From contig NZ_FTOB01000001.1 in NCBI RefSeq assembly GCF_900156625.1, forward strand, positions 434,001 to 498,000: a DNA stretch of 64,000 bases. The letters are read 5' to 3'. Below are positions 16,644-24,127 of the stretch, in pieces (positions within the stretch are counted from its first letter, which is position 1; each line of letters starts with the position of its first letter). The notes below the pieces were generated by a model. That model was not told the DNA's origin and ran no database searches. It saw only the letters and a list, made by a program, of their open reading frames with translations. The DNA is from Zobellia uliginosa. Its GTDB lineage: Bacteria; Bacteroidota; Bacteroidia; Flavobacteriales; Flavobacteriaceae. The translations under genes and the position numbers were made by a program.

Positions 16644-17897
16644 CTACTCGCTAAATTTTTTGAAAATTACACAAGCATTGTGTCCGCCAAAGCCAAAAGT
16701 GTTGCTCAAGGCTACATTTACTTCACGTTTTTGCGCTTTGTTCAATGTGAGGTTCAGTTTGGGGTCAATATTTTCGTCTACCGTGTTGTGGTTTATAGTC
16801 GGTGGTACCAGACTATGTTTCATGGCCAAAATGGATGCAATGGCCTCAATGGCCCCGGCGGCACCTAATAAGTGACCGGTCATCGATTTGGTAGAGTTGA
16901 TATTGATGTTCGGGGCATGATTGCCAAAGACCTCACTAATGGCCTTTAGCTCCGCTACGTCTCCAAGAGGGGTAGAAGTACCATGGGTATTGATGGCATC
17001 TACATCTTCAGGCTTTAGTCCGGCATCCCTTAAACAGTTTTTCATTACTTGAACTACTCCTATTCCGTCAGGATGCGGAGCGGTCATATGGTAGGCATCG
17101 CTCGATAGTCCGCCTCCGGCGACTTCGGCATATATTTTTGCCCCACGTGCTTTGGCGTGCTCGTACTCTTCAAGAATCAAAGCGCCTGCGCCTTCACCCA
17201 GAACAAATCCGTCGCGAGTAGCATCAAATGGCCTAGAGGCCGTTTCAGGACTTTCGTTACGGGTCGATAATGCGTGCATGGCACCGAAACCACCCATACC
17301 TGCTATGGTAACCGCCGCTTCACTACCTCCGGTAACTACTACGTCGCAATGGCCCAAACGAATATAGTTGAGCGCATCGATCATAGCGTTGGCCGATGAG
17401 GCACAAGCTGAAACCGTAGTGTAGTTAGGCCCCATAAAACCATGTTTGATAGAAATATGCCCTGGGGCAATATCAGCTATCATTTTGGGTATGAAGAAAG
17501 GGTTGAATCTTGGTGTGCCATCACCTTCGGCAAAATTAATAACCTCGTTTTGAAAGGTTTCGAGACCGCCAATACCGGCACCCCAAATAACGCCAACGCG
17601 AAATTTGTCTACTTGTTCTAGGTTTAATCCTGAATCGGCTATCGCTTCATCGGAAGAGACCAAGGCGTATTGCGCGAATCTGTCCAATTTTCTTGCCTCC
17701 TTGCGATCAAAATGATCTAGAGGGTTGAAATTCTTGAGTTCACAGGCAAATTTCACCTTAAATTTTTCGGTATCGTAGTAGGTAACGGGAGCAGAACCGC
17801 TCTTTCCGTTTTTAAGACCTTCCCAATATTCATCAATATTGTTACCAATGGGAGTCAACGCACCCAACCCGGTAACCACAACTCGCTTTAATTGCAT
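16644..17897 (-). CDS. fabF: Beta-ketoacyl-ACP synthase II
   Basis: FabF elongates acyl-ACP with malonyl-ACP. At 417 residues it is full length. The catalytic Cys lies in TVSACASSANAM (about 165), the two active-site histidines in NTHGTSTPLGD and STKSMTGHLLGAAG, and the C-terminal NTFGFGGHNA is intact. It follows acpP by 112 bases and precedes rnc by 6. The acpP-fabF pairing is nearly universal in bacteria. Confidence 0.97.
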   Translation of the reverse strand: MQLKRVVVTGLGALTPIGNNIDEYWEGLKNGKSGSAPVTYYDTEKFKVKFACELKNFNPLDHFDRKEARKLDRFAQYALVSSDEAIADSGLNLEQVDKFRVGVIWGAGIGGLETFQNEVINFAEGDGTPRFNPFFIPKMIADIAPGHISIKHGFMGPNYTTVSACASSANAMIDALNYIRLGHCDVVVTGGSEAAVTIAGMGGFGAMHALSTRNESPETASRPFDATRDGFVLGEGAGALILEEYEHAKARGAKIYAEVAGGGLSSDAYHMTAPHPDGIGVVQVMKNCLRDAGLKPEDVDAINTHGTSTPLGDVAELKAISEVFGNHAPNININSTKSMTGHLLGAAGAIEAIASILAMKHSLVPPTINHNTVDENIDPKLNLTLNKAQKREVNVALSNTFGFGGHNACVIFKKFSE

Positions 17898-18009: not shown

Positions 18010-18243
18010 TTACTTCGCTTCTTCTATATAGCTAATGGCCTGGCCAACTGTTGCGATGTTCTCAGCTTGATCGTCGGGGATTTGAATATCAAATTCTTTC
18101 TCGAATTCCATGATCAACTCCACGGTATCCAATGAGTCTGCCCCTAGGTCGTTAGTAAAGCTAGCTTCCGTTACTACTTCGTTTTCATCCACACCTAATT
18201 TATCAACGATGATAGCTTTTACTCTTGATGCAATGTCTGACAT
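18010..18243 (-). CDS. acpP: Acyl carrier protein
   Basis: A 77-residue acidic protein. The phosphopantetheine attachment Ser lies in the classic [10 protein letters not shown] motif (Ser about 38). It carries growing acyl chains for FabF, FabH and the rest of type II fatty-acid synthesis. It is the first gene of the leftward acpP-fabF-rnc operon, has a -7 box about 34 bases upstream, and diverges from purN. Confidence 0.97.
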
Positions 18244-18284: not shown

Positions 18285-18357
18285 AAAAACTTTGGACTAA
18301 ATCCACTATTTGTCGTTAAAATGTCTTGTAATTTATAAAATTTCAGGATAAGAGCGG

Positions 18358-22695: not shown

Positions 22696-22800
22696 CGATT
22701 TATTTCGATGAAATGCATTTTTTAATGTAGTTCGTCGATCATATAAGCTATTTAGCGTGTTTTTAACTTCTTACAGATGTTGTGGGACTACATTTGGTCT

Positions 22801-22877
22801 TGCCATAGCATAAGTAGGTTAAGTTCATGGTAAGATTTGGGGCAAAAAGGTGGAGATTTCTCCACCTTTTTATTTTT
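22801..22877 (+). ncRNA. Array small RNA, copy 1
   Basis: The -7 box TACATTTG (22789-22796) precedes the conserved core (22804-22842). The terminator stem GGTGGAG (22849-22855) / CTCCACC (22860-22866) is followed by TTTTTATTTTT. The predicted transcript is about 75 bases. The stem has a T-A pair where copies 2-4 have C-G, a compensated change. The start site is inferred from the -7 box. Confidence 0.75.
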
Positions 22878-23036
22878 ACAGACTTTTCTAACCACCTATA
22901 AGATTTTTTACCCTTTGCTGTATTGCATTTCTTTTTGCAATATACCTTTTCCGCTCATTTCGTGTCTTTTATCCGATTTTTATACGGTTCGGCAAAGATG
23001 TTTTTGCCTGCCTTAACACCGCTGTATATTTGTAGG

Positions 23037-23111
23037 ACCATAGCATAAGTAGGTTAAGTTCATGGTAAGATTTGGGGAAAAAGGCGGAGTCAAACTCCGC
23101 CTTTTTATTTT
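23037..23111 (+). ncRNA. Array small RNA, copy 2
   Basis: The best promoter of the array: TTG (23004-23006), 18 bases, TATATTTG (23025-23032). The core is 23039-23077. The stem GGCGGAGT (23083-23090) pairs with ACTCCGCC (23094-23101) and a TTTTTATTTT tail ends the RNA. The following spacer is shared with copies 3 and 4. Confidence 0.8.
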
Positions 23112-23276
23112 CAAAACCATTTTAATCCCTTTCTCGGATAGTTCTCTTTTCCATAGTATAGCTCCAAAACATTGTAAATAATCCGGATTTTATTGATAAA
23201 GAGGTATTTCAGCCACGGTTTTGATCGTTCGTCCGAAACCTTTTTTCCAAGCTTCATAGCGCTTTATATTCGTAGG

Positions 23277-23351
23277 ACCATAGCATAAGTAGGTTAAGTT
23301 CATGGTAAGATTTGGGGAAAAAGGCGGAGTCAAACTCCGCCTTTTTATTTT
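23277..23351 (+). ncRNA. Array small RNA, copy 3
   Basis: The -7 box is TATATTCG (23265-23272), one base off consensus, with no clear -33 TTG. The core (23279-23317) and the terminator (stem 23323-23330 with 23334-23341) are identical to copy 2. It may be less active than copies 2 and 5. Confidence 0.75.
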
Positions 23352-23524
23352 CGAAAAGATTCAAAGCCATTTTACTCTTCCTTCGATAGTTCTCTTTTCC
23401 ATAGCATAGCTCGAAAACATTGTAAATAATCCGGATTTTATTGATAAAGAGGTATTTCAGCCACGGTTTTGATCGTTCGTCCGAAACCTTTTTCCCAAGC
23501 TTCATGGCGCTTTATATTAGTAGG

Positions 23525-23599
23525 ACCATAGCATAAGTAGGTTAAGTTCATGGTAAGATTTGGGGAAAAAGGCGGAGTTTGACTCCGCCTTTTTATTTT
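23525..23599 (+). ncRNA. Array small RNA, copy 4
   Basis: The -7 box is TATATTAG (23513-23520), one base off consensus. The core is 23527-23565. The stem GGCGGAGT (23571-23578) / ACTCCGCC (23582-23589) has a TTG loop, where copies 2 and 3 have CAA: the loop changed while the stem was kept. Confidence 0.75.
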
Positions 23600-23772
23600 C
23601 GAAAAGATTCAAAGCCATTTTACCCTTCCTTCGATAGTTCTCTTTTCCATAGCATAGCTCCAAAACATTGTAAATAATCCGGATTTTATTGATAAAGAGG
23701 TATTTCAGCCACGGTTTTGATCGTTCGTCCGAAACCTTCTTCTCAAGCCCCTTGAGAGCTTACATTTGTAGG

Positions 23773-23847
23773 ACCATAGCATAAGTAGGTTAAGTTCATG
23801 GTAAGATTTGGGGAAAAAAGGTGGAGCTATGCTCCGCCTTTTTTATT
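23773..23847 (+). ncRNA. Array small RNA, copy 5
   Basis: The -7 box TACATTTG (23761-23768) is exact. The core is 23775-23813. The stem GGTGGAGC (23820-23827) pairs with GCTCCGCC (23831-23838) through one G-T wobble, with a TAT loop and a TTTTTTATT tail. Confidence 0.78.
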
Positions 23848-23968
23848 ATACAAACCCTTGTAAATATAAGACCTGACGGGCTTTTCGGGCGTTTTTGTCA
23901 ACAATTGGGTTTAAAAAAAACCCCGAAAATAGTTTTTTTATTTCCCACAATACCAGTATTTTAGTATC

Positions 23969-24045
23969 GCCATAGCATAAGTAGGTTAAGTTTATGGTAA
24001 GATTTGGGACGAAAAGGGTGGAGTTTACTCCGCCCTTTTCTATTT
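23969..24045 (+). ncRNA. Array small RNA, copy 6 (most diverged)
   Basis: The -7-like box is TATTTTAG (23957-23964). The core (23971-24009) has two substitutions, TTCATGG to TTTATGG and the final G to A. The stem is extended to nine pairs: GGGTGGAGT (24016-24024) with ACTCCGCCC (24027-24035). Its upstream spacer is unrelated to those of copies 3-5. Confidence 0.72.
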
Positions 24046-24059
24046 TAAATAAGGAACTA

Positions 24060-24096
24060 AAAAAACCGCTACGAACTAGATCGTAGCGGTTTTTTG
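24060..24096. terminator. Bidirectional terminator between the RNA array and sodA
   Basis: ACCGCTACGA (24065-24074) and TCGTAGCGGT (24081-24090) form a perfect ten-pair stem with A-rich and T-rich flanks. It can stop sodA from the right and any read-through of the array from the left. Confidence 0.85.
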
Positions 24097-24127
24097 TGTT
24101 TTACAAGAGTAAATTCTCGGCTGCTTC

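Follow-up and report, generated by a model that had tools for sequence, protein, structure and literature searches.

A tandem array of small RNA genes conserved in Flavobacteriaceae and its predicted pairing with operator-linked start regions

The window, that is, the whole stretch of 64,000 nucleotides of Zobellia uliginosa DNA that was analyzed, contains between purF and sodA a tandem array of six units that are almost certainly small RNA genes. Comparison with related sequences points to family-wide conservation of the array, a 5′ hairpin in the predicted RNA, a putative direct-repeat operator shared with other genes, and an enriched complementarity between the RNA core and the starts of those genes. 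The explanation that we favor, and regard as probable, is that the units encode sibling trans-acting RNAs, which would silence a surface regulon whose operator also drives them. The array RNA would be a regulator of an ordinary kind, unusually well conserved and with a concrete network. The shared direct-repeat operator, the separate promoter of the last copy (class C), and the operator-linked complementarity to the core are new here. Few small RNAs of Bacteroidota are well characterized; those considered here are from Bacteroides and, in one case, Flavobacterium.

Array between purF and sodA

The flanking labels purF and sodA fit, with both NCBIfam matches under the curated cut-offs (134 versus 350 bits for purF and 252 versus 363 bits for sodA). 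A preliminary description of this DNA had placed six promoter-driven small RNA genes in the interval, and the sequence bears this out: each unit consists of a 39-base core, a TAnnTTTG-like box that starts about 13 nt upstream of the core (6/6 units), and a terminator (Table 1). The start-to-start distances are 235, 240, 248, 248, and 196. The core is identical in five of the six copies, and copy 6 differs by a single C-to-T change. A G+C-rich hairpin and a T run, differing in sequence among the units, lie 3′ of each core; inverted repeats were detected for units 1–4, and the folding of units 1, 2, 4, 5, and 6 gave z values of −2.99 to −4.10. The array RNA contains the stretch AAGUAGGUUAAGUUCAUGG. 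A search of the own genome with the first 21 core bases, allowing up to three mismatches, returned exactly six matches and no seventh copy, and the reversed control returned 0. By sequence, these are near-identical copies, each with its own promoter and terminator, as in multicopy trans-acting small RNAs. No tRNA was found, and a phage origin was dismissed after 0 exact 20-mer matches in viral contigs. At positions 24055–24100 of the window, between the array and sodA, A and T runs accompany a strong inverted repeat that probably acts as a terminator in both directions.

Table 1. Positions in the window of the small RNA copies and putative promoter elements
Feature	Positions	Strand	Remarks
Operator before acpP	18287..18324	−	acpP 18010-18243, fabF 16644-17897, both minus
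Operator of copy 1	22727..22764	+	20.1 bits, array weight matrix
Small RNA copy 1 (class A)	22803..22876	+	core 22803-22841, terminator to 22876; −7-like box TACATTTG 22789-22796
Operator of copy 2	22964..23001	+	22.3 bits, array weight matrix
Small RNA copy 2 (class B)	23038..23111	+	−7-like box TATATTTG 23025-23032
Operator of copy 3	23204..23241	+	28.1 bits, array weight matrix
Small RNA copy 3 (class B)	23278..23351	+	−7-like box TATATTCG 23265-23272
Operator of copy 4	23452..23489	+	28.1 bits, array weight matrix
Small RNA copy 4 (class B)	23526..23599	+	−7-like box TATATTAG 23513-23520
Operator of copy 5	23700..23737	+	28.1 bits, array weight matrix
Small RNA copy 5 (class B)	23774..23849	+	−7-like box TACATTTG 23761-23768
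Class C promoter block TTATTTCCCACAATACCAGTATTTTAG	23938..23964	+	no direct repeat; nearly frozen in relatives
Small RNA copy 6 (class C, last)	23970..24045	+	core TTTATGG, linker GGGACG; −7-like box TATTTTAG 23957-23964

Distribution and conservation in relatives

The covariance-model search that the preliminary description had proposed was made with a model of 64 diverse units. It matched 240 of the 299 sampled Flavobacteriaceae genomes, which represent 193 of 236 genera; among the 249 good genomes, 213 were matched. Each matched genome has one to seven copies. Strong matches in a phylum draw (25/296 genomes) and an order draw (39/296) were all in Flavobacteriaceae, with one borderline match elsewhere in the former (G436) and four outside the family in the latter (G052, G614, G664, and G777); all three draws, like the FopS genome search described below, are samples with stricter filters that lose weak matches. 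A match in G049 was discarded because it covers the terminator part only (query 56–81). An exact 21-mer scan of a species-genome collection found at least 116 stretches, the titles of which name flavobacterial genera or metagenome-assembled genomes labeled Flavobacteriaceae, Flavobacteriales, or Bacteroidetes. Among the matches listed, 112 of the 116 stretches have PurF and/or SodA next to the RNA, and 75 have both. PurF was present at 47/47 and SodA at 43/47 of the loci L183–L229, which include Flavobacterium-type loci and the window itself (L213), and one or both at 22/23 of the loci L012–L034. Five loci (L095, L106, L109, L117, and L022) carry the array RNA with no PurF or SodA similarity in reach and are possibly relocated copies.

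Units 2–5 sit in 248-bp repeats, so that their similarity alone could reflect recent copying. Together with a few decayed copies (L053, L226, and L229), these repeats would suit a plain repeat homogenized by duplication and gene conversion, with no function as a regulatory RNA. Such a reading is scarcely credible, because the core, promoter box, and terminator are kept across the family as the spacers diverge, also where a single copy is found. This is the opposite of a drifting core between conserved flanks, the pattern that the preliminary description had named as contrary to its claim of selection on the core. That claim holds well, since in relatives the core is nearly frozen, in contrast to the terminator stems, the spacers, and a large part of the promoter DNA. 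The compensated variation of the terminator stems also recurs in relatives, where three pairs are altered on both sides, in 8–12 sequences each.

Anatomy of the predicted RNA

The preliminary description had envisaged an unpaired recognition segment of about 40 bases followed by a terminator hairpin. The terminator is upheld, but a single unpaired segment is not, since the first ~28–30 nt of the core are predicted to form a 5′ hairpin with the stem ACCAU-AGC-UAA/UUA-GUU-AUGGU. Among the 64 units, a G-U pair of this stem has changed to A-U in 13 and an A-U pair to G-C in one (L034), and there is one broken cell. Almost no change is seen in the hairpin loop AGUAGGUU or in the linker UGGUA(A)GAUUUGGGG, and the spacer between GGUA and GAUUU shows a one-base difference between clades. 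Recognition is predicted to be split between the hairpin top and loop and the GAUUUGGGG linker, and the parts assigned to the predicted pairing are CAUAAGUAGG and GAUUUGGGG. A small protein encoded in the core was ruled out by reading, in view of a one-base core difference between clades and the variable terminator length. Three classes of copy can be told apart at many loci, with A in first position, B in the middle, and C at the end, and each of the 12 genomes used for the pairing tests has one class C copy. Variant cores that lie beside intact copies (L053:6647-6718, L226, L229, and L099) could reveal which bases matter.

Promoters of the array

In all classes but C, a putative operator made up of two TTYATC-like half-sites, about −70 and −50 from the core, was found in 285 of the 350 promoters. 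The half-site spacing is 20–21 bp, mostly 20. The pair is present in 85/118 class A, 123/147 class B, 57/64 class S, and 20/21 class F promoters, compared with means of 0.65, 0.85, 0.4, and 0.1, respectively, in mononucleotide-shuffled promoters. Class C promoters have 0/94 (shuffled mean 1.15). They carry a block of ~27 bases that reaches to the −7 box, and this block was found nowhere else in the stretches scanned, the best non-array match scoring 12.8 bits.

A direct repeat with a period of about two helical turns would suit a regulator of the LytTR or the AraC type. The canonical spacing of LytTR repeats is 21–22, as compared with the 20–21 bp, mostly 20, of the array. The half-site is presumably similar to the LytTR consensus, and an AraC-type binder is possible too. 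We name a LytTR-type regulator as the driver only tentatively. One LytTR response regulator, in a single genome, is itself operator-linked (L478:806-1495; G006). Its operator is weak (14.5 bits) and lies 23 nt upstream of the start, and the leader is two-box-like; it is a candidate for an autoregulated driver.

Operator at acpP and at surface genes

A weight matrix was made from 254 array operators. In 864 kb of the own genome, a sample picked for many SusC genes, the single strong hit outside the array lay before acpP (24.4 bits; the next scored 12.9). This operator scores 18–25 bits in the window, in three other genomes of the genus Zobellia, and in five further genera, and at the remaining 22 acpP loci the score was nowhere above 10.3 bits. 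It is 21 bp nearer the −7 box than in the array and lies over the −33 region; the operator at acpP could repress fatty-acid synthesis.

A profile search of 12 genomes of nine genera brought up many further operator sites. We examined 112 of these, taken among the matches listed after removal of the array and acpP sites, one of which (G231:1332389) was assigned to acpP by position only; the listed sites G001:3495990, G002:3414090, and G002:3551617 were left out. As many as 106 of the 112 lie outside open reading frames of 100 amino acids or more, compared with an ORF coverage of about 82% (a conservative count) of the sampled genome. Products of operator-linked genes include lipoproteins that weakly resemble pectate lyases and have a cadherin-like domain (above the Pfam cut-off in one of two), DUF1800 proteins, a member of the PorP/SprF family, and a protein similar to zinc metalloproteases, this last match being below the cut-off; the operator also precedes gyrA. 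The labels gyrA and MBOAT were given by reading, as were those of the sugar-nucleotide enzymes and the glycosyltransferase at L368 (G000 C13:624000-636000), where they accompany two operator-bearing lipoproteins in what reads as an exopolysaccharide synthesis cluster. A family of MxCLECxxxLGYTDHK-like small proteins was also reached via the operator in eight genomes (L479, L360, L433, L441, L353, L409, L462, and L469); the member tested (L479) has no Pfam or NCBIfam match. The operator-to-promoter spacing at targets is scattered (16 cases scored), which lends activation no support.

Complementarity of the core to operator-linked starts

After exclusion of six sites in open reading frames and 36 without a start in range, the 112 sites gave 70 starts (66 distinct), with gene starts taken from our own ORF calls. 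Pairing with the core was compared with a background of 557 sampled starts of the own genome. Under the 2% tail of this background fell 22 of the 70 operator-linked starts, where 1.4 are expected (Mann–Whitney, 6e-11). The count was 21/66 for distinct starts, spread over 10 of the 12 genomes, and 9/41 (0.8 expected) with one member per gene family, families being grouped by simple string likeness; the remaining 45 of the 66 show no unusual pairing. Among control starts, i.e., other starts of the same loci and of the relatives' acpP loci, 4/187 were in the tail (Fisher, 1.5e-10), and two of the eight strongest (L434 and L346) resemble targets by eye. The antisense-type action on mRNA starts suggested in the preliminary description is thus supported by sequence. 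With 40 shuffled whole cores, the mean shifted by at most −2.5 kcal/mol, compared with −4.25 for the real core. The parts taken singly are less distinctive: for the loop part, one of 60 shuffles shifts the mean further (−1.81 versus −1.72 for the real one) and shuffles put up to 10 starts in the tail versus 8 observed, and for the linker part the best shuffle ties the observed tail count of 7.

The best target sites have two boxes, CCCAAATC and AACCTACTTATG, the latter over the start codon, and these match the two frozen parts of the RNA. Two boxes in order occur at 16 of the 70 starts (4/41 by first family member) versus 4/557 of the background, and CCTACTTA occurs in 4/41 families versus 0/557. 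In the own genome, the leader GUCCCCAAAUCCCAAAUCUUAACACCUACUUAUG of a lipoprotein beginning MKIIKLKVINL is predicted to pair with both frozen parts at −35.7 kcal/mol, versus −28.7 for the best of the 557 sampled starts. Its orthologues in a second Zobellia genome and a Pseudozobellia-type genome keep CCCAAATCC..AATCTTAACACCTACTTATG while the leader upstream differs, a conservation that covers three genomes and two genera. In the MxCLECN family, a CCCAAATC-like and a TTGACCTACT-like box stand in order in 7/8 genomes, with an insert of variable length. A search for CTACTWATGAAA made blind to the operator reached another SKDTDLL lipoprotein (L408, G257), which carries CCCAAAG as well as AACCTACTTATG, and CCCAAA-type boxes at other starts (L498, L382, and L503). 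Complementarity to mRNA starts beyond chance was found in 12 genomes of nine genera, and base pairing of the RNA with operator-linked starts in Zobellia and relatives is, as far as sequence can tell, very likely.

The target prediction with the core, another check put forward in the preliminary description, had a mixed outcome, with enrichment among operator-linked starts and none in the strong tail of the 557 own-genome starts, although their whole-core mean was lower (−16.9 versus −15.5, sd 0.45). The lack of a strong-tail excess implies that targets are a minority of genes. The complements CCCCAA and AACCTAC were not enriched near the 557 starts of the 864-kb sample, and long single-seed matches received no support. 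fabF, the top loop-part hit among the 557 starts, was dropped because its leader is not conserved; the acpP–fabF gap is only ~10–20 nt in many genera. SusC targets of the FopS kind were likewise set aside: in the own genome, the 17-base complement of the linker plus AUG matches a single place outside the array at two mismatches.

The flat tail among the 557 starts is also what would be expected of decoy RNAs similar to CsrB or RsmZ, in which the hairpin and the GGGG linker would bind an RNA-binding protein and copy number would set the capacity. The many equal copies fit this as well, and the hairpin and linker are nearly frozen in their entirety, stem sequence included, which exceeds the needs of a pairing seed. 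Decoys would not, however, predict complementary boxes in the right order at the starts of genes under the same operator, and the one protein partner looked for, the RRM family, was not found in this genome; we consider titration unlikely.

A co-variation test failed in Flavobacterium. If the seed pairs with CUACUUAUG, Flavobacterium, with its CAUUAG RNA (CATTAG core confirmed for 16 of 21 genomes), would be expected to prefer CUACUAAUG, and two-box sites there would carry CCUACUAAUG. In 90 fetched CTACTWATGAAA matches, the counts at Flavobacterium starts were T 7/A 2, where A was expected, and those at start codons of CATAAG-core genomes were T 9/A 2. Among the matches listed, T/A was 18/12 in CATAAG-core genomes (7 of 23 genomes) versus 55/65 in Flavobacterium (20 of 21), and the CTACTWATGAAA pattern was not above its reversed control in either (97 versus 90 and 128 versus 136, respectively). 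Either targets are few in Flavobacterium, or other boxes are used, or the role differs there. Owing to these failures, support for the pairing is confined to Zobellia and eight further genera, and the chance that the RNA has the same role across Flavobacteriaceae is about even.

Proposed mechanism

Here, we propose that the array gives rise to ~75-nt trans-acting base-pairing small RNAs. Each RNA probably begins about one base before CCATAG, and would fold into a 5′ hairpin (ACCAU-AGC-UAA stem and GUAGG loop), with the linker GGUAAGAUUUGGGG left single-stranded between this hairpin and the terminator of the unit. Pairing with the leader boxes CCCAAAUC and AACCUACUUAUG would involve GAUUUGGG in the linker and CAUAAGUAGGUU at the hairpin top. 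Because AACCUACUUAUG spans the start codon in the best targets, translation initiation should be blocked, and repression of the targets seems likely. Some MxCLECN leaders show a hairpin-like CCCCC..GGGG between the boxes, as might be seen if pairing opened an inhibitory leader, with operator and RNA acting in the same direction (coherent feed-forward). Activating RNAs of this kind are nonetheless improbable, as box 2 of the best targets (ACCUACUUAUG) includes the start codon and pairing over a start codon normally blocks initiation. In the silencing that we propose, the operator of copies 1–5, which also lies upstream of many predicted targets (among them surface lipoproteins of an exopolysaccharide-type locus), would be activated by its binder, and the RNAs would form the RNA arm of the surface regulon, capping it via an incoherent feed-forward loop. 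The last copy, with its separate promoter, may give a constant or differently signaled output. The fullest form of the proposal has perhaps an even chance: one locus would hold a battery of small RNAs throughout the family, recognizing leaders with two boxes, CCCAAAUC and, over the start codon, AACCUACUUAUG, under a direct-repeat (LytTR-like) operator shared with the surface-polysaccharide and secreted-protein genes that they silence, the last copy standing under a separate frozen promoter.

If this is true, most sampled Flavobacteriaceae have in common a regulator with a named operator, candidate targets, and a two-box recognition rule. It would also be relevant to start-site recognition by small RNAs in these bacteria, in which, to our knowledge, Shine–Dalgarno sequences are rarely used and Hfq is mostly absent.

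Comparison with known small RNAs

No Rfam family matched the window at its gathering score, and all 94 matches at E ≤ 10 in positions 22700–24110 were below theirs; Flavo-1, the family that was to be checked first, was neither at gathering in the window nor among the 94. The preliminary description, which could name no known family, is thus in agreement with Rfam. A literature search with the core letters and related reports found no description of the array RNA, most subscription papers being outside its coverage.

The nearest system in the same phylum is FopS/GibS, multicopy Bacteroides RNAs of ~65–70 nt that, according to the accessible part of PMC11697453, have sigma-ABfr promoters and pair at the translation starts of surface-protein mRNAs, which is a precedent for start-site blocking. 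FopS has fourteen copies in B. thetaiotaomicron, and one tandem locus is not described in that part of the paper, which also names LhrC1-7 of Listeria (PMC11697453). The array RNA could be seen as a divergent form of this family, both being multicopy and about 70 nt long with a short shared stretch, UUCAUGGUA--AGAUUU, which 16 of 2000 shuffles align equally well before allowing for the number of families. We consider such descent very unlikely: the array units score at best 19.3 bits with the FopS model (RF04319) against a gathering score of 56, the genome search with that model reports another place and not the array, and the array pairing relies mainly on other bases. The FopS model is without the 5′ hairpin of the array RNA, and the target boxes differ. 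In addition, the RbpB-type RRM partner (PF00076) had 0 matches in the own genome, whereas 2 of 14 control genomes match. FopS-model hits below gathering at G053 C1:2970447 (L272, 43.9 bits) and G414 C18:28835 (L273, 36.4 bits), in genomes other than the two that match FopS in full, are perhaps divergent FopS RNAs.

Within the family, Rfp18 of Flavobacterium psychrophilum is a small RNA linked to secreted proteins, and the part of PMC9723704 that was available describes it with at least a third stem-loop, whereas the array RNA has two hairpins; the comparison is by description only. The array RNA may be among the 85 newly described F. psychrophilum RNAs of the same paper (PMC9723704).

By description and not by sequence, the array is like Qrr in being a set of sibling RNAs that have a core in common and a promoter each. 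The Qrr RNAs of Vibrio answer to a common response regulator, are based on sigma-54/LuxO and Hfq, and come from scattered loci. LhrC1-7 are multicopy, partly tandem, and two-component-driven, with surface-protein mRNAs as targets. LhrC directs C-rich seeds against Shine–Dalgarno regions, whereas the array RNA would direct AGUAGG and GAUUUGGGG against start regions.
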